A stretch of DNA of 64,000 bases, from the NCBI RefSeq assembly GCF_034479515.1, contig NZ_CP140152.1:62001-126000 (forward strand). The letters are read 5' to 3'. Positions 48,933-56,048 of this stretch are shown in pieces. The DNA is from Duganella zoogloeoides. Lineage in GTDB: Bacteria > Pseudomonadota > Gammaproteobacteria > Burkholderiales > Burkholderiaceae_D. The number at the start of each line of letters is the position of its first letter. The first letter of the stretch is position 1. Both the position numbers and the translations under genes were made by a program. A model generated the notes under the pieces. The model worked only from the letters and a program-made list of their open reading frames with translations, did not search any database and was not told the origin of the DNA.

Positions 48933-50843
48933 ATGGCTGTCGTAGAAAAAACGGTGCCTGGTGTTCATAACGCACCGGCCAATGCCCTGCCACCTGTCGT
49001 GGCCCTGCTGGGTAATCCCAACTGCGGCAAGACCGCGCTGTTCAACCGCCTGACCGGCGCACGCCAGAAAGTGGCCAACTACGCCGGCGTGACCATCGAA
49101 CGCAAGGAAGGTGCCTTCAATTCGCAGGCCGGCCACACGTACCGCGTGCTCGACCTGCCGGGCGCCTACAGCCTCACCGCCCACACCCCGGACGAAGCGA
49201 TCACGCGCGACGTGGTGGCCGGCCTGCGCCGGGGCGACGCCGCGCCGGACGTGCTGGTGTGCGTGGTCAACGCCACCAACCTGCGCCTGAACCTGCGCCT
49301 GGTGCTCGAGGTGCAGCGCCTGGGCCTGCCCATGCTGCTGGCGCTGAACATGGTCGACGTGGCCAAAAAACGCGGCGTCGTCATCGACACCGCGCGCCTG
49401 TCGCAGGAGCTGGGCATGCCGGTGGTGGAAACCGTGGCTGTGCAGCCGGGCGGCGAAAAGGCGCTGGTCGCCGCGCTCGATACCATGCTGCCGCTGCCGC
49501 AGGTCGTCACCAAGCCGCTGTCGGCCATCGACGCGGTGTCGGTGGAAGAGACCCAGCGCGAAGTGCGCCGCATCATCGCCGCCGCTGTCAGCGGCGACGA
49601 CGAAGCATCGTCCACGTCCGAAAAAATCGACAGCGTGGTGCTGCACCCGGTGGTCGGCCCGATCATCCTGGCCGTACTGATGTTCTTCGTGTTCCAGGCC
49701 GTGTTCAGCTGGGCCGCCACGCCGATGGACATGATCACCGGCGCCTTCGAGCACCTGGGTGCGGTATTGGGCGAGTATGTGCCGGAAGGCCACCTGCGCA
49801 GCCTGCTGGTCGATGGCATCATCGGCGGCGTGGGCGGCGTGTTGGTATTCCTGCCGCAGATCCTGATCCTGTTCTTCTTCATCCTCATGCTCGAGGACTG
49901 CGGCTACCTGCCGCGCGCCGCCTTCCTGCTCGACCGCCTGATGGGCGGCGTGGGCCTGTCGGGCCGCGCCTTCATCCCGCTGCTGTCGAGCTTTGCCTGC
50001 GCGATTCCCGGCGTGATGGCCGCGCGCACGATTCAAAACCGGCGCGACCGTTTTGTCACCATCATGATCGCGCCGTTGATGACGTGTTCCGCGCGCCTGC
50101 CCGTGTATGCGCTGGTAATCGCCGCCTTCATCCCGAGCCGCGAAGTGCTTGGCATCATGAACCTGCAAGGCCTGGTGCTGTTCATCCTGTACGTGGCCGG
50201 CATCGTCTCGGCCATGCTGGTGGCGTACGTGATGAAGCGCACCATGGGCGGCAAGGGCAAGCACCCGTTGATGATGGAACTGCCGGCCTACCACTGGCCG
50301 CACCTGCGCAACCTGGCGCTGGGCCTGTGGGAGCGCGCCAAGATTTTCGTCACCCGCGTCGGTACCATTATCCTCAGTCTCACCATCATCCTGTGGGCAC
50401 TGAGTTCGTTCCCGGACGCGCCGGAAGGCGCCACCCAGCCGGCCATCTACTACAGCGTGGCGGGCATCATCGGTCGCGGCCTCGAATACATCTTCGCGCC
50501 AATTGGCTTCAACTGGCAAATCTGCATCGCGCTGGTGCCCGGCATGGCCGCGCGCGAAGTGGCAGTGGGCGCCCTGGGCACCGTGTATGCGATGTCGCAG
50601 ACCGGCGACGAGCTGGCCAATTCGCTGGCGCCGGTGCTGGCCGCCAGCTGGGGCTTGCCAACGGCGCTGTCGCTGCTGGCGTGGTTCGTGTTTGCGCCGC
50701 AGTGCCTGGCCACCCTGAGTACGGTCCGCCGTGAAACCAACAGCGTCAAAGCTGCGTGGTTCATGGCCGGTTATCTGTTTGCGCTGGCGTACGTGGCGGC
50801 ATTCCTCACGTTCCGCATCTCGACGGCAATCATCGGAGGCTGA
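48933..50843 (+). CDS. feoB: ferrous iron transporter B
   Basis: The inner-membrane Fe2+ transporter has 636 residues, shorter than the 770-residue enteric form. The N-terminal G domain has G1 LGNPNCGKTALFNRLTGARQ, switch region YAGVTIERKEG, G3 LDLPGAYSLTAHTPDEAIT and G4 ALNMVDVAKKRG. Two Gate domains carry LPRAAFLLDRLMGGVGLSGR (with the conserved core) and LVPGMAAREVAVGALGTVYA. It sits in feoA-feoB plus a small Cys-rich gene, under the Fur box. The shortened C-terminal region is typical of the compact class in this order. Confidence 0.94.
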   Translation: MAVVEKTVPGVHNAPANALPPVVALLGNPNCGKTALFNRLTGARQKVANYAGVTIERKEGAFNSQAGHTYRVLDLPGAYSLTAHTPDEAITRDVVAGLRRGDAAPDVLVCVVNATNLRLNLRLVLEVQRLGLPMLLALNMVDVAKKRGVVIDTARLSQELGMPVVETVAVQPGGEKALVAALDTMLPLPQVVTKPLSAIDAVSVEETQREVRRIIAAAVSGDDEASSTSEKIDSVVLHPVVGPIILAVLMFFVFQAVFSWAATPMDMITGAFEHLGAVLGEYVPEGHLRSLLVDGIIGGVGGVLVFLPQILILFFFILMLEDCGYLPRAAFLLDRLMGGVGLSGRAFIPLLSSFACAIPGVMAARTIQNRRDRFVTIMIAPLMTCSARLPVYALVIAAFIPSREVLGIMNLQGLVLFILYVAGIVSAMLVAYVMKRTMGGKGKHPLMMELPAYHWPHLRNLALGLWERAKIFVTRVGTIILSLTIILWALSSFPDAPEGATQPAIYYSVAGIIGRGLEYIFAPIGFNWQICIALVPGMAAREVAVGALGTVYAMSQTGDELANSLAPVLAASWGLPTALSLLAWFVFAPQCLATLSTVRRETNSVKAAWFMAGYLFALAYVAAFLTFRISTAIIGG

Positions 50844-51132: not shown

Positions 51133-51143
51133 TCTGCGCTCGC

Positions 51144-52517
51144 TCAGAGCCGATCAGTCTTCAAGCTTCGTACCGTCTGCCACGTGGGGCCAAAGGCGCC
51201 CCACGCCACCGACAGGCCGGCCACCTGTTCCAGTTGTTCGATAAACTGCGCCGCGCTGGCGATGGGCTGCGCCGCCAGCCTTGGCGCAGCCTGCTGCAAG
51301 AGCGCCGTCAGATCTGCCTGGTGTTCCAGGTCGCCCCTGGCGCCCTGATGCAGGCCGATGACTGCATCCTGAGCATTGCGCTGGCATAGCTGCGCTTTGT
51401 CCGCCCCATGCGCCACCTCGTATCCCTCGCACCAGCGCAGTTGCGGCGCCCGGTCGAACGCATCGAGATGGCTGACCAGCAAGCCATCGAGCCGGCCGAT
51501 CGCTGCCAGCGCATAGCGCAGCAGCACCAGGTCGGGATGGCCGCGCCGAAAAATTCCCTGCCAGCCGCCCGCCGCATTGTGCGGCTCCGGCAGCAGGTCC
51601 AGGCGCGGGTCGTGGCTGGGAAACGGGCCGTTGCCGTGGCGCGTCAGGTAACTGCGCATCGCGCCCAGGTGGGTAATGCGGCCGTGCTGGCCGGCGTCAA
51701 CGGCCACCGCTTCGACTGCCGACGTATGGATGGTGCTCCAGGTGGTGTACGGGTGGAAGCCGCGCCACTCGTCGAGCAGAACGCCTTGCGCACCTTCGAA
51801 CAGCACGGTGCCGGGCAGGTGCAGCCGGGCCGCCACGTCTGCATGCGGCGCGGGCGGCGCATGCCGCGCTAGTCGCTGCACCTGCTCCAGCCAGCGGCGC
51901 GCCAGCGCGCCATCGCGCAGCACTGCCTGCTCCTCGTGCCAGCCGGTGCGCACGTCGTCCGGGGCGCCGTCGTGGGACACTGCTGCAAGCAGGGTGGTGC
52001 GGAGCGCTTCCAGTTTGTCGAGCGCGCGGACGGGCGTGAGCAGATCAGCATAGCGCAGCGTGAGTTCGGGATGCGCCAGGTCGTGGCGGACGGTTTCGCC
52101 CACGCCCACGCCGCAACTGCCATGAGCGGCGGCGCCGCGCGCCAGCTCGCGCATGCGCCCGGCCGCCTGGTGAAACGGCGTGGTGAGGCGGCAGCGGGCA
52201 TCGATGACCAGCCGTTGCAGGGCATCGGTGACGCCGGCGCGCTGCAGGTAGCTGCTCTCGACCAGCAGCGCGGTGGGGTGGACGATGACCGGAAAGGCCA
52301 GCAGCGTGTGCACGCCCGGATGGAAGCTGCCTGCGCCGAACTGGGAAAACGTGTGGTGGCGGCCATCGGGCAGCACCACGTTGTGCGCCGCCTGGGCGCC
52401 GCCATTGAAGCGCACCACGGTGTGGGCCTGCATGGCGCGGCACAGCGCATCGATGAACAGGCCCTTGCCGCAGTCGCCAAAACCCAGTCCCTGGACCGAC
52501 ACCAGCCGGGTTGCCAT
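51144..52517 (-). CDS. divergent adenylosuccinate-synthetase (PurA/PurZ-like) homologue
   Basis: The protein has 457 residues from ATG 52517 (the ATG at 52544 would overlap the upstream gene). PurA-type landmarks are VSVQGLGFGDCGKGLFIDAL (P-loop; Asp15 kept, the following Glu is Cys16), RFNGGAQAAHN (catalytic His45), FEGAQGVLLDEWRGFHPY (241-257), and TRHGNGPFPS. Two parts differ from true PurA: the arginine-rich aspartate/IMP loop (TTGRRRRTGW) is AGGWQGIFRRGHP, and the TKLD guanine-recognition motif is SHLDAFD. It probably joins a purine-like or other oxo-group compound to an amine, or is no longer an enzyme. It is third in a module with a vWA protein and a pseudokinase. Confidence 0.75.
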   Translation of the reverse strand: MATRLVSVQGLGFGDCGKGLFIDALCRAMQAHTVVRFNGGAQAAHNVVLPDGRHHTFSQFGAGSFHPGVHTLLAFPVIVHPTALLVESSYLQRAGVTDALQRLVIDARCRLTTPFHQAAGRMRELARGAAAHGSCGVGVGETVRHDLAHPELTLRYADLLTPVRALDKLEALRTTLLAAVSHDGAPDDVRTGWHEEQAVLRDGALARRWLEQVQRLARHAPPAPHADVAARLHLPGTVLFEGAQGVLLDEWRGFHPYTTWSTIHTSAVEAVAVDAGQHGRITHLGAMRSYLTRHGNGPFPSHDPRLDLLPEPHNAAGGWQGIFRRGHPDLVLLRYALAAIGRLDGLLVSHLDAFDRAPQLRWCEGYEVAHGADKAQLCQRNAQDAVIGLHQGARGDLEHQADLTALLQQAAPRLAAQPIASAAQFIEQLEQVAGLSVAWGAFGPTWQTVRSLKTDRL

Positions 52518-52522
52518 CGCGC

Positions 52523-53491
52523 TCAACCGAACAGGCGGCGCCACCAGCTGCTGCCGCCGACTGCCGCGCCGCCCATGCCGTGGGCAGCGGCGTCCGGATC
52601 ACCGAGTGCGGCGTAAGGGCGGACTGCGCGGATGATGGCGGAAATCCGGTCGCCGGCAATGCCGTTGGCGGCCAGCGTGGGCGCCAGGGCATCGATGCCG
52701 GCGACCGATTTTTCGGTGAGCGCCACCAGCGAGGCGGCCACCGCGCAGGCATCTTCCGGCGCCTCCGTGCAGATCACGCGGTCCCCTAGCAGATCGCGCC
52801 AGCGCCGTTCGCAGTTCTTGCGGCGCTGGAGGTCCGGCACCAGGAAAAAGATGTGGAAGGTTTCGGCCGCTGCCGCGATCACTTCCGCGATCGGAATATC
52901 TTCATCGAGCTTGTCGCCGATGAGCGTATCGATCTGGTGGCGAGACACGGCCGGGTACGGATGCTCGTCGCCGGTCAGGAACAGATAGCCCTTCTTGCGG
53001 CGCCTGGTCCAGCAATCCATTTCCATGTGCTGCGCCGCCACGTAGAACGCCAGCTCGTAGCTTTCTTCGCCGGTGCCACCGCCGCCGCCTTCGAGATAGC
53101 TCCAGGTCAGCCATTGGTCCATCAGCTGCGCGGTCGATTCGAACTGGCCCACTTGCAGCGCGGCGTCGTCGGACGTGGCGTCGCCAATTGCCATGAACAG
53201 CAGTTGCGGGTCGCGTACGCCGCACGCGGTAAGCAAGGCCATGAAGGTGGGCAGCTCGCGGGTGGCCAGGCTGTTGGGAATCGCACCCATCGACCCGGTG
53301 ACGTCCAGCGCGAACACAATGCCGAGCGAGTGCGGGTGGTCGGCGCTGTCGCGCGCCTCGCGCACGCCCATGCCGTGCGGATTCATCAGCGGGTGGCACT
53401 GGCGCTGGGTAAATACTTCGCGGTGCGCGTCGTTGGCGCGGTCGGCGATGATGGCGGCGTGGGCCGCCTGCGAATAATTTCCGTGTCCCAT
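52523..53491 (-). CDS. von Willebrand factor A domain protein of the PurA-like module
   Basis: The protein has 322 residues and no signal peptide. A conserved leader MGVREARDSADHPHSLGIVF enters the vWA fold with a MIDAS motif DVTGSMG (Asp63, Thr65, Ser67), later FMAIGDATSDDAALQVGQFE, YLEGGGGGTGEESYELAFYV and GYLFLTGDEHPYPAV. A metal-dependent protein-protein interaction role is expected, as in chaperone-like or AAA-associated vWA proteins, but no AAA partner is nearby. The C-terminus ends in a Gly/Ala-rich tail (AAAHGMGGAAVGGSSWWRRL). Spacing of 12 and 5 bases to its neighbours indicates an operon. Confidence 0.85.
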   Translation of the reverse strand: MGHGNYSQAAHAAIIADRANDAHREVFTQRQCHPLMNPHGMGVREARDSADHPHSLGIVFALDVTGSMGAIPNSLATRELPTFMALLTACGVRDPQLLFMAIGDATSDDAALQVGQFESTAQLMDQWLTWSYLEGGGGGTGEESYELAFYVAAQHMEMDCWTRRRKKGYLFLTGDEHPYPAVSRHQIDTLIGDKLDEDIPIAEVIAAAAETFHIFFLVPDLQRRKNCERRWRDLLGDRVICTEAPEDACAVAASLVALTEKSVAGIDALAPTLAANGIAGDRISAIIRAVRPYAALGDPDAAAHGMGGAAVGGSSWWRRLFG

Positions 53492-53503
53492 GGAAGCTCC
53501 TTG

Positions 53504-54451
53504 TCAGCGAGGGGTGGGGGTAAAGTGGAGAAACCGCGGCGGGCCAAACGCGGCCACGGCGGCGGTCTTGAGCGCCTGGTCGATGCCGGCGGCGCCGTGC
53601 CGCGCGCACCAGTGGGCGTCTTCGCTGGCGCGGCGCAGCAGCGTGGCCAGCGGCGCCGGTACGGCGGCGGCAATCGGCGGCTCATTGCCATCGTCGCCGC
53701 TACCGTCAAGCAGGCTGCGGATCGACCACGCAGCCTGCATCAGGTCGCGCGCTGCCGTGGCTTTGACGCTTAGCCGCTGTGCGCCTGCCCAGCCGATGAT
53801 CAGGATGCCGTGATCGGCGGGATGGACCAGCAGGTGTTCCGGGGCCAGGCGGCCATGCGCCCAGCCAGCGGCGTGCACATAGCCCAGCACTTCGAGCATG
53901 CGGCGCCACATCCACACGGCGTGGCGCGGGTCGATGCCGCCCGGGTAATGGCGCCGCACGTCGGCCAGGCTGCCCCAGTATCCGACCGGGTGGCGCAGCA
54001 CCAGCGCCTGCGCGCCCGCTGCCACGTTGCCGGTGGCTGCGCCTTGCGCGACCAGTTGCGGCAGGCGCTGTGAAAAATACGCGGCGCCGGGAATGGCCGC
54101 AGCTTGCAGCTGGTGCAGGATCGCTGCTTCGTGTTGCAAGGCGTGCGGTGACTGCGACAGTTTGATCACGACCCGCTCCGGGCCGGCGCCGATACGCTGT
54201 GCCAGCAGCACGCTGGCGCTGGACGTCAGGGGAGTGATGATGCGGTAGCGCTGGCCGGCGCAGACGATGTGGCTGGCAGCGTTGTCGTCCGCCAGCGAAC
54301 GCTCGTACGCGGCGCGGAAATCGGCCGCCAGGATGGTGCGGACCTGGGGCGAGACGATGGCCGAACAGTACAGGCATTGCACGGTGCGCCAGCGCGCCGA
54401 GGACGGCAACGAGGCGCCGCACTGCGGGCAATTGAGGGAGACAAAGATCAT
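53504..54451 (-). CDS. zinc-ribbon protein with protein-kinase-like (pseudokinase) domain
   Basis: The protein has 315 residues. Residues 8-29 form a zinc ribbon (CPQC at 8-11, CLYC at 26-29). Residues about 70-260 resemble a eukaryotic-type protein kinase: Lys97 in VVIKLSQ, Glu108 downstream, WMWRRMLEVLGYVHAAGWAH. The catalytic loop is HGRLAPEHLL (199-208) instead of HRDLKPENLL, so Asp becomes Arg and Asn becomes His. The DFG position is GWA (220-222). Hence it is a pseudokinase, possibly ATP-binding but not phosphorylating. It is first in the three-gene module and 178 bases from the divergent GST gene. Confidence 0.78.
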   Translation of the reverse strand: MIFVSLNCPQCGASLPSSARWRTVQCLYCSAIVSPQVRTILAADFRAAYERSLADDNAASHIVCAGQRYRIITPLTSSASVLLAQRIGAGPERVVIKLSQSPHALQHEAAILHQLQAAAIPGAAYFSQRLPQLVAQGAATGNVAAGAQALVLRHPVGYWGSLADVRRHYPGGIDPRHAVWMWRRMLEVLGYVHAAGWAHGRLAPEHLLVHPADHGILIIGWAGAQRLSVKATAARDLMQAAWSIRSLLDGSGDDGNEPPIAAAVPAPLATLLRRASEDAHWCARHGAAGIDQALKTAAVAAFGPPRFLHFTPTPR

Positions 54452-54629
54452 GCGACAACCCGGTACTGGATCACTGGTCGATCATACCTTGTTTTATCGG
54501 AAAGGGTTGCTCGTTTGCCAATCATCGGCCCGGAGCGCTGCATATTCTCCCGATCGGCCAGCAGTGCAATCGTGCCAGAAATGCTAAGCTAGGCATATCG
54601 CGGCACGGCCGTTCTTTTTTGGAATCCAC
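54452..54629. promoter_or_regulatory. divergent intergenic region between pseudokinase module and GST gene
   Basis: This 178-base region must contain the promoter of the three-gene module on the minus strand and of the GST gene on the plus strand. By eye no clear -35/-10 pair, operator palindrome or terminator stands out. A TATCG-rich stretch near 54590-54605 precedes the GST ribosome site. Confidence 0.3.
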
Positions 54630-55301
54630 ATGATCGTCGTTCACCACCTCAATAATTCGCGCTCGCAGCGCGTGCTCTGGCTGCTGGAAGAACTGGGACT
54701 GGACTACGAGATCGTGCGCTACCAGCGCGACGCCAAGACCATGCTGGCACCGCCCGAACTGCGGGCCATCCACCCGCTGGGCAAGTCGCCGGTGATTGTC
54801 GACAACGGCGTGGTGGTGGCCGAATCGGGCGCCATCGTCGAGTACCTGGTCGATACCTACGGCAACGGCCGCCTGGTGCCGCCTGCCGGCACCGAGGATC
54901 GCCGCCGCTGGACCTATTTCCTCCACTACGCCGAAGGCTCGGCCATGGCGCCGCTGTTGATGAAGCTGGTGTTTGATCGCGTGGAAACCAGCCCGGCGCC
55001 GTTTTTTGTGAAGCCGATCACGCGCGGCATCGCCCGCAAGGTCAAGGGCACGTATATCGAACCGCAAATCGCTTCTCACCTCGACTACCTCGAAGCCGAA
55101 CTGGCCAGGTCGCCATGGTTTGCCGGCGCCGAATTCACCGCCGCCGACATCCAGATGAGCTTCCCGCTGGAAGCAGCCGCCGCCCGCGCCGGCCTCGACA
55201 GCAGTCGCCCCCGGTTGATGAGCTTTCTCGAGCGCATTCATGCGCGTCCTGCCTATAAGCGGGCGATTGAGCGTGGTGGAGAGTATGCGTTGCTGAAGTA
55301 A
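54630..55301 (+). CDS. glutathione S-transferase, Gtt1-like
   Basis: The protein has 223 residues. The N-terminal domain MIVVHHLNNSRSQRVLWLLE has the SRS/R start of the Gtt1/YliJ-type class, with the glutathione-binding block HPLGKSPVIVDNGVVVAESG. The helical C-terminal domain ends FLERIHARPAYKRAIERGGE. It is a cytosolic detoxifying transferase or peroxidase. It is divergent from the pseudokinase module and only 12 bases from the convergent toxin gene, with no obvious functional link. Confidence 0.9.
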   Translation: MIVVHHLNNSRSQRVLWLLEELGLDYEIVRYQRDAKTMLAPPELRAIHPLGKSPVIVDNGVVVAESGAIVEYLVDTYGNGRLVPPAGTEDRRRWTYFLHYAEGSAMAPLLMKLVFDRVETSPAPFFVKPITRGIARKVKGTYIEPQIASHLDYLEAELARSPWFAGAEFTAADIQMSFPLEAAAARAGLDSSRPRLMSFLERIHARPAYKRAIERGGEYALLK

Positions 55302-55313
55302 CTCGGGGTGTTA

Positions 55314-55709
55314 TTACCAGATGGTGCGCACGTGAGGGTAGGCGCGGATTTTCTGATCGATTGTGACCAGTGGAATATTCATCGTCAGCGCGGTGGCGAC
55401 GATGATGCGGTCGGCGGGATCTTTGTGAAACTGGCCTGGCAGTTCAACTGAGGCCACGGCGATGTGGTTGTCCACGGGAATGAAACGAACCCGTCGAAGC
55501 TTTTGGATCGCCTTAATCCAGTTGTGCAATTCGGTCGATAAATGGATTCTTCCGTGCGCGTTCAGTAGCGCAATTTCCCAGCACGATAGCGACGAAATCG
55601 TGACCCGGCTGAGCCGCTGGGCATTTTCAATCGCCGCTTTGGCGGCGAGAGAAAGCTTGGGGCTGCCTTCAAACCACCAAATCAACGCGTGAGTATCGAG
55701 CAGTATCAT
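55314..55709 (-). CDS. PIN-domain toxin (VapC-like)
   Basis: The protein has 131 residues with the PIN-domain acidic residues: Asp5 in MILLDTHALIWWFEG, Glu in ISSLSCWEIALLNAHGRI, and Asp residues in KDPADRIIVATALTMNIPLV plus VTIDQKI near the end. This is the ribonuclease fold of VapC-type toxins. Its start overlaps the antitoxin stop by 4 bases, the usual antitoxin-first arrangement. The GC content is lower than the surroundings, which suggests acquisition by transfer. Confidence 0.9.
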   Translation of the reverse strand: MILLDTHALIWWFEGSPKLSLAAKAAIENAQRLSRVTISSLSCWEIALLNAHGRIHLSTELHNWIKAIQKLRRVRFIPVDNHIAVASVELPGQFHKDPADRIIVATALTMNIPLVTIDQKIRAYPHVRTIW

Positions 55710-55930
55710 CGGAAGGGCGCATAGCCGTCAGCTTCAATCGGCGACACGATGTTGCCTTCGGCCAATACGCTGCCGCGCATTTTTTCGTTTGGCACCGAGC
55801 GGAAGGGACGGATATCGAGTATCGGCTTGCCGTTTTCGGTAATGAAATAGATGTCGCTGGACGCCGCGATTTTTTTAAGCGCCTTCTGCGGGTCTGCCAG
55901 AAACTCTTCCAAAGCAATGGTGGGCCACAT
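55706..55930 (-). CDS. Phd/YefM-type antitoxin
   Basis: The protein has 74 residues from ATG 55930, with GGAGG 6 bases upstream; the longer frame from 55981 is not needed. MWPTIALEEFLADPQKALKK followed by ITENGKPILDIRPFRSV matches the Phd/YefM fold (N-terminal DNA-binding region, TENGxPxxxL strand). The C-terminus (VSPIEADGYAPFR) would bind and mask the PIN toxin. The pair is probably autoregulated by the antitoxin and complex. Confidence 0.85.
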   Translation of the reverse strand: MWPTIALEEFLADPQKALKKIAASSDIYFITENGKPILDIRPFRSVPNEKMRGSVLAEGNIVSPIEADGYAPFR

Positions 55931-56048
55931 GATCGCCTCCGTAGGATAGGTTGATGTTACGCTATCTGTCACCGATTTCAAGCAAGCGCTACCGCACCCC
56001 GCTCGGTTAAAATGGCGGCTTCACCAAGTAGCCCGGACCACGTTTAAC

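Follow-up and report, generated by a model that had tools for sequence, protein, structure and literature searches.

Several described systems resemble parts of a three-gene module that lies in a 64,000-nucleotide stretch of the Duganella zoogloeoides genome (RefSeq assembly GCF_034479515.1, contig NZ_CP140152.1, positions 62,001 to 126,000; hereafter the window). One of its products belongs to the adenylosuccinate synthetase (PurA) family, in which D333 indicates GTP use. The TerY-P triad, which Anantharaman and colleagues are said to have described in 2012, reportedly combines a von Willebrand factor A (vWA) protein, a PP2C protein and a zinc-ribbon kinase. NrtR is an ADP-ribose-responsive NAD repressor, and its regulon includes the NAD salvage operons of pncB, nadE and a gene for an NMN adenylyltransferase (NMNAT)/Nudix protein, as well as nadV. 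PurZ and PurZ0 are PurA paralogues of 2-aminoadenine phages, found in the Z-cluster purZ-mazZ-datZ. According to the accessible part of PMC12884076, a Ser (or Gly) in place of the catalytic D13 marks PurZ, and 767 PF00709 sequences yielded 251 PurA and 151 PurZ, leaving, by subtraction, 365 in neither.

The module in the window consists of three genes:

53504..54451, minus strand, zinc-ribbon pseudokinase gene (315 aa)
52523..53491, minus strand, vWA gene, product integrin beta-I-like (322 aa)
51144..52517, minus strand, PurA-like ligase gene (457 aa counted from the ATG)

The genes are separated by gaps of 12 and 5 bases, as an earlier note made from the sequence alone had stated for 51144–54451. 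Its description of a zinc ribbon joined to a kinase domain without catalytic residues was borne out, with HGR in the place of HRD and GW in that of DFG, and the PurA homologue is altered in its substrate loops as that note had said, the base, phosphate and aspartate pockets all having been rebuilt. The vWA and kinase folds were checked via structure prediction and structure comparison. The PurA-like protein shares with PurA (PF00709, TIGR00184) the fold, the P-loop and D13, H41, Q224 and D333, and would probably carry out GTP-dependent phosphorylation of a 6-oxopurine, but it falls on a separate branch, has changed base, 5'-phosphate and aspartate pockets, has a fixed vWA partner and coexists with a canonical PurA. 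The module resembles the Z-cluster in placing a PurA paralogue that phages also carry in a small gene cluster, but its enzyme keeps D13 rather than Ser, matches PurZ profiles weakly, occurs in bacteria and is accompanied by vWA and pseudokinase partners. As in TerY-P, a vWA protein adjoins a zinc-ribbon kinase-fold protein, but a PurA-like enzyme apparently takes the place of PP2C and the kinase is degenerate. In the MoxR-vWA and ternary conflict systems, as far as the accessible portion of PMC7159879 describes them, vWA is likewise a peptide-binding partner, but the present trio has no AAA+ protein, a pseudokinase instead of an active kinase, and a PurA-like ligase.

The trio is a real and widespread module. 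Bacterial conservation was assessed in the best-scoring 80 of 529 relatives of the window vWA protein, which are not a random sample and which, by record titles, come from Betaproteobacteria, Verrucomicrobia, Myxococcota/Deltaproteobacteria, Chloroflexi, Acidobacteria and Fibrobacteria. PurA-like and kinase genes were both found on the strand of the vWA gene in 76 of these 80 loci, a very strong co-occurrence where the earlier note had allowed that the three genes might rarely be found together. Three of the other four loci have a kinase without a PurA-like gene and one has a PurA-like gene without a kinase. Only two of these exceptions (L069 and L088) are informative, because L080 has no downstream sequence, ending 95 bases past the vWA gene, and L072 has no upstream sequence, starting within approximately 180 bases of it. 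The order was exactly kinase, vWA, PurA-like in 62 of the 80 loci (no PP2C profile search was made), and a second vWA gene was found in 11 further loci of the 80, chiefly myxobacterial. In these eleven (L076, L078, L079 and L081–L088), mostly from myxobacteria or deltaproteobacteria, the two vWA copies lie beside at most one PurA-like gene. The kinase and vWA are joined in one reading frame in L042 (7473–8966) and P0095, representing either a fusion or a frameshift. Even samples of genomes from the family (195 genomes) and the phylum (398 genomes) supplied 18 distinct further loci, with a PurA-like gene in all 18 and a kinase gene in 14 within the 1.5 kb of flank examined.

The module is also carried by phages. 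In the PHROG collection the pseudokinase belongs to phrog_3043 (a kinase family), the vWA protein to phrog_2971 (function unknown) and the PurA-like protein to phrog_1211. Among 50,697 phage records there were 224 matches to the PurA-like protein, a few of which resemble host PurA, 206 to the vWA protein and 191 to the kinase. Most were in Mycobacterium phages, and vWA and PurA-like genes were also found in Rhizobium and Vibrio phages. The gene order is kept in the Bixzunaviruses Tonenili and I3 (Mycobacterium phages), with one small gene between the vWA and PurA-like genes in I3, and in phages Va1 and RHph_TM30 the vWA gene is followed by the PurA-like gene. Four scans of viral contigs, from which the best-scoring 80 of 167, 103, 194 and 347 matches were taken (again not at random), together with four phage loci, gave 315 viral loci, of which 226 have distinct vWA cores once 89 near-copies are dropped. 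A PurA-like gene was present in 216 of the 226; where the downstream sequence exceeded 1.5 kb, the figure was 202 of 207 loci. The 218 distinct loci with more than 1.2 kb upstream comprised 95 with a kinase, 61 with a small helical-looking protein and 62 with neither; none had both. Eighteen of these 62 have one other upstream protein in common, and a VDGVVWD-type motif was seen in 11 of the 14 of those displayed. A Met-rich VDGVVWD protein precedes the vWA gene in one Vibrio phage (L003:6150–6863) and one Rhizobium phage (L007:5735–6526), and the Vibrio phage protein had no PHROG match. Two loci from IMG/VR (L089 and L090) have vWA proteins 69–71% identical to that of the window; they are probably bacterial DNA in a viral collection and were retained in the viral counts.

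The constant core of the module is the vWA and PurA-like pair, while the first gene is exchangeable. Bacteria have a zinc-ribbon pseudokinase in this position; many phages, and the actinobacterial plasmids, have a pseudokinase whose N-terminus is J-domain-like; other phages have the small helical protein or the VDGVVWD-type protein; and in some loci no such gene was found. The three-gene set proposed earlier stands as a module but not as a fixed trio, many loci having another gene in first place or none. The plasmid records matching the PurA-like protein numbered 89, apparently canonical PurA among them. Three Rhodococcus or Tsukamurella plasmids carry kinase, vWA and PurA-like genes followed by a Nudix gene, and HPD was seen in both of the kinases displayed. 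The earlier statement that no phage or plasmid genes surround the module holds for the genes adjoining it here, although phages commonly carry the module itself and it is also plasmid-borne. When 135 of 144 neighbouring genes in phage loci (from L091–L168) were profiled with Pfam, no family was dominant; AAA_5 was detected in two of the 135, and the trio itself includes no AAA+ gene. Of the 315 viral loci, 27 encode a Ro60/TROVE-like RNA-binding protein at most about 5 kb from the module (for example L138:6865–8631) and nine have RtcB at up to about 7 kb, a possible RNA-repair neighbourhood.

The PurA-like protein is a full-length match to the PurA family (187.4 bits with PF00709, for which the gathering score is 27) that did not reach the equivalog cut-offs of the NCBIfam PurA models (128.5 against 395.55 and 148.2 against 402). 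Its score with the PurZ model NF038379 was 23.9 bits, against a cut-off of 300, and it matched a PurA chain at 240.7 bits compared with 27.2–42.0 for PurZ and PurZ0 chains. In a phylogeny made by a quick search, 57 module sequences were separated from 12 PurA and one PurZ by a branch with an SH-aLRT value of 99. The canonical rows were the PurA of the D. zoogloeoides genome itself and PurA sequences from a further set of loci, all having passed a simple motif filter, and the single PurZ sat on a long branch. The enzyme forms a branch separate from both PurA and PurZ. In D. zoogloeoides, whose genome is a single contig of 6.32 Mb, the genome profile search found a canonical PurA at C1:4152042 (598.8 bits, compared with 186.6 for the module protein), so the module protein is not the sole adenylosuccinate synthetase homologue of the genome, an outcome that the earlier note had left open. 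The vWA gene is present once.

Residues were counted in 155 PurA-like rows (77 bacterial and 78 viral), with E. coli numbering mapped via the genome's own PurA. In the window protein D15, K18, H45, Q244 and D352 correspond to E. coli D13, K16, H41, Q224 and D333, and Q42, C135, H294 and Q320 replace N38, T129, V273 and T301. Across the rows D13 was retained in all 153 that were readable (two had gaps), H41 and Q224 in all 155, K16 in 153 and D333 in 152. The pockets, in contrast, have changed. N38 is Q in 153 rows (N in two), T129 is C in 136 or V in 17 (T in two), V273 is H and K267 is R in all 155, R131 is V in 125, and R143 is retained in only 10. In the aspartate loop T301 is Q in 152 rows and T in none, R304 is F in 133, and at position 303 an R occurs in 24 of the 77 bacterial rows but does not rank with the six most frequent residues of the 78 viral ones; R305 is kept as R or K in 154. 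In the portion of PMC8342488 available, the base pocket of S-2L PurZ is lined by the counterparts of N38, T129, Q224 and V273, the alpha-phosphate is bound by the R143 counterpart from the other subunit, and E. coli PurA R303 touches the IMP O2' and the aspartate. The mapping of the pocket positions was verified by alignment; the aspartate loop and C-terminal part of S-2L PurZ aligned poorly, and the aspartate-loop comparison is with PurA alone. Because the catalytic residues stay while the pocket residues change, the catalytic chemistry of PurA is probably kept and the substrates probably differ.

The vWA protein has a MIDAS-like motif (D63-x-T65-G-S67) and many invariant acidic residues, and no signal peptide was apparent on inspection by eye, no predictor having been applied. 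Its N-terminus, M-G-x-G-x-Y, is conserved throughout the family, 296 of 307 distinct proteins having a start codon followed by Gly-x-x-x-[YWF], and the first ten residues were modelled at a mean pLDDT of 83. Within the chain G4 is coupled to T120 (z 10.5), so the N-terminal motif may simply pack on its own domain. The pseudokinase has zinc-ribbon cysteines C8, C11, C26 and C29 and retains K97 and E108, but has R201, H206 and G220 where active kinases have the HRD Asp, the catalytic-loop Asn and the DFG Asp, and it does not qualify as an active kinase. Of 79 bacterial kinases, 77 have lost the DFG Asp, all have His instead of the catalytic Asn, and 32 keep the HRD Asp; the 30 phage kinases keep the DFG Asp in nine and the HRD Asp in one. 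A J-domain-like HPD motif was present near the N-terminus in 26 of the 30 phage members, versus a zinc ribbon in 68 of the 79 bacterial members, and Pfam detected DnaJ in five of 45 kinase members. These residue patterns suggest that the kinase-fold protein is either an adaptor or an enzyme with an unusual use of ATP. The matches that Foldseek and VIA listed for the vWA and kinase proteins were mainly integrin and eukaryotic kinase entries, and TerY was not among the matches listed, which carries no evidential weight.

An association of the module with NrtR or with NAD-salvage genes was found in several bacterial lineages, and this link to NAD is new here. In a metagenome-assembled Rhodocyclaceae genome (L021), pncB, nadE and an NMNAT/Nudix gene lie directly upstream of the kinase, vWA and PurA-like genes on one strand, with a divergent NrtR-like gene ahead of them. 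The pncB and nadE products scored 532.1 and 589.5 bits, both over the cut-off, and the NMNAT/Nudix product 325.6 bits, under the model cut-off of 397; a possible nicotinamidase-like gene before pncB (26.3 bits) was also below its cut-off. Genes for pncB and NMNAT/Nudix were found at distances matching L021 in L038, L041 and L053. We know of no NAD operon of this composition. An NrtR-like gene was found in 15 of 98 bacterial loci and in four of the 315 viral loci. It immediately precedes the module, in the same orientation, in L043, L170, L171 and L181 and one gene away in L014–L018, and is divergent in others, adjacent in L182 and L219–L221 and about 5 kb away in L021 and L053. All four of the NrtR-like neighbours given to Pfam (L014, L182, L219 and L220) exceeded the cut-off for NrtR_WHD (PF21906); the NCBIfam model for the ADP-ribose-responsive repressor scored five neighbours at 142–160 bits, short of the 400 that is its cut-off. 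In the Massilia relatives L014–L018 a gene of about 325 aa, SPFH-like by eye, lies between the NrtR-like gene and the kinase (for example L014:6051–7025).

In the cleanest test of this link, all 19 module genomes of the family and phylum samples were searched for NrtR_WHD, along with 13 genomes without the module that we chose ourselves. It was present in 16 of the 19, at one to three copies each, and in two of the 13. The distance from the vWA match to a copy is at most 2.1 kb in 13 of the 19 (seven of nine by genus). On actinobacterial plasmids a Nudix gene comes after the module, and among the 315 phage loci, near-copies included, there were 18 with NAMPT, 17 with an NMNAT/Nudix-type gene and 10 with NADAR (one confirmed by Pfam).

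The module is present or absent as a unit, which may reflect either a single gain with later losses or repeated exchange. It was present in 15 of the 195 genomes of the family, in five of the 12 listed for the genus (D. zoogloeoides included) and in six of the 398 of the phylum. The variable segment and its flanks in the window are as follows:

51134..54573, strand not applicable, segment missing from close relatives (3440 bp), containing exactly the three genes
48933..50843, plus strand, flank gene on one side, by sequence that of the FeoB ferrous-iron transporter, syntenic in relatives with and without the module
54630..55301, plus strand, other flank gene, which we take to be glutathione-S-transferase (GST)-like, syntenic in relatives with and without the module

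In two close relatives the three genes are cleanly absent, with 28 bp (genome G120) and 31 bp (G040) between the feoB and GST-like genes versus approximately 3.44 kb in the window, and the G040 boundary matches within a few bases. In G089 and G166 this feoB/GST-like site is occupied by the module. In G067 the module is elsewhere, and the counterpart of the window's GST-like flank gene has an NrtR gene beside it (G067:C14:106534–106713). Two small overlapping genes at 55314–55981 on the minus strand of the window, 1 kb from the module, resemble, by sequence, a PIN-domain toxin and its antitoxin.

The reading we tentatively favour is that the module encodes an accessory NAD- or ADP-ribose-linked nucleotide-modifying complex common to bacteria, plasmids and phages. 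The PurA-like enzyme would use GTP, as the kept D333 suggests, to phosphorylate the 6-oxygen of a purine, and an amine would then displace the phosphate as in PurA. The group acted on would most plausibly be a hypoxanthine (or guanine) that forms one half of an NAD-related dinucleotide or of an ADP-ribose derivative; loss of Arg143 points to a substrate that needs no 5'-phosphate clamp, and loss of T301, with R303 mostly lost, to an amine other than aspartate. The vWA protein would be an obligatory partner that presents or gates the substrate, and the pseudokinase, bearing a zinc ribbon or J-domain, an adaptor with a recruiting or regulatory role. In NrtR lineages rising ADP-ribose, as NAD is consumed, may switch the module on. 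The window itself has no NAD neighbour, so a function in D. zoogloeoides can be proposed only by relationship. The earlier suggestion of a self-contained maker of a modified nucleotide survives as the best reading, the PurA catalytic residues being kept and the pockets not, but it missed the NAD/ADP-ribose context, which is visible in relatives only. A more specific form appears rather unlikely: that the enzyme is a third purine-6-ligase branch beside PurA and PurZ, strictly dependent on its own vWA partner, and that its product, an N6-altered or re-aminated dinucleotide of the NAD type or a derivative of ADP-ribose, is used by bacteria and phages contesting NAD.

Several observations weigh against the NAD-linked complex. 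The retention of R305 as R or K leaves room for a carboxylate-bearing amine. Coupling between the vWA and PurA-like proteins (213 pairs) could not be distinguished from shared ancestry or noise at 131 effective sequences; the best inter-protein pair had z 9.3 versus 19.6 within a protein, and inter-protein pairs made up 100 of the top 300. The NAD link is absent from the D. zoogloeoides genome (G000), unlike the NrtR-regulated salvage operons that the module joins or adjoins in some lineages: no NrtR was found there, nor in G570 or G091, and in G089, G067 and G177 it is on a different contig from the module. Within the genus of the window only one of five module genomes has NrtR linked, six of the 13 linked genomes belong to one genus, and seven of the 13 links were known ahead of the genome search, itself done in two parts. 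The examined stretch contained no NrtR-like gene in 83 of the 98 bacterial loci, and clustering of the flanks revealed no outside neighbour common to more than 15 of the 80. The Nudix protein of the Tsukamurella plasmid had no NrtR_WHD match and scored 23.3 bits with the NrtR model. The phage counts of NAD genes are weak evidence, because near-copies were counted and NAD genes are common in phages anyway, with NadV in 22% of medium and 33% of jumbo phages in the part of PMC9503650 consulted.

The alternatives differ in how they meet the same evidence. A conflict module, in which the bacterial copy answers NAD depletion or phage attack and the phage copy counters NAD-depleting defence whatever the product, concerns role rather than chemistry and is compatible with the NAD-linked complex. 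The patchy distribution (15/195, 5/12 and 6/398 at the levels of family, genus and phylum), the clean presence or absence at one site, the frequency in phages and the NAMPT, NADAR, RtcB and Ro60-like neighbours in some of them all fit such a role, but PADLOC profiles matched neither the PurA-like nor the vWA protein and gave the kinase at most 15.1 bits, and bacterial flanks, which were clustered and not profiled against PADLOC, have no widely shared neighbour; we regard this role as doubtful. That the enzyme is instead a second adenylosuccinate synthetase, a regulated isozyme using IMP and aspartate to feed adenine nucleotides to NAD synthesis, would agree with the full-length family match, with D13, H41, Q224, D333 and R305 and with the NAD context. 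It is made improbable by the pocket changes, R143 being kept in 10 of 155 rows and N38, V273, T301 and R131 being replaced by Q (153), H (155), Q (152) and V (125), and it leaves the fixed vWA partner unexplained.

Modification of a DNA precursor in the manner of PurZ, giving an unusual purine deoxynucleotide for phage genomes, would account for a PurA paralogue in many large phages, some of them annotated as 2-aminooxy adenylosuccinate synthetase. It is very improbable, since D13 is Ser in all 147 phage PurZ (in the accessible part of PMC12884076) but is kept in 153 of 153 rows here, the PurZ model gave 23.9 bits against a cut-off of 300, and among the bacterial copies no neighbour, for instance a DNA-synthesis gene, is widely shared, and NrtR linkage occurs in several genera. 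The most improbable of these readings is protein purinylation, in which the PurA-like enzyme would join a purine to Gly2 of the vWA protein once the Met is removed. The N-terminal motif in 296 of 307 vWA proteins and the rebuilt aspartate-binding loop would fit, but the coupling of residues 4 and 120 and the N-terminal pLDDT of 83 suggest packing on its own domain, 131 effective sequences being few.

No description of this gene set was found in the literature searched, which covers few subscription papers and was available in part, and the term 'adenylosucc' was absent from the accessible portions of PMC9503650, PMC7824862 and PMC7159879. Two phage genome announcements that use the term PurA-like were among the papers listed. 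The gene set, one member of which resembles a housekeeping enzyme, occurs across several bacterial phyla and in viral contigs by the hundred, and has no described function in that literature. At least three groups are covered by the phage annotation adenylosuccinate synthetase, which calls for caution with that label. The pocket changes and the NrtR link make the NAD-linked reading directly testable. Should NAD-type nucleotides prove to be its substrates, the enzyme would represent a new chemical step in NAD metabolism and in the competition that bacteria and phages wage through the destruction and rebuilding of NAD.

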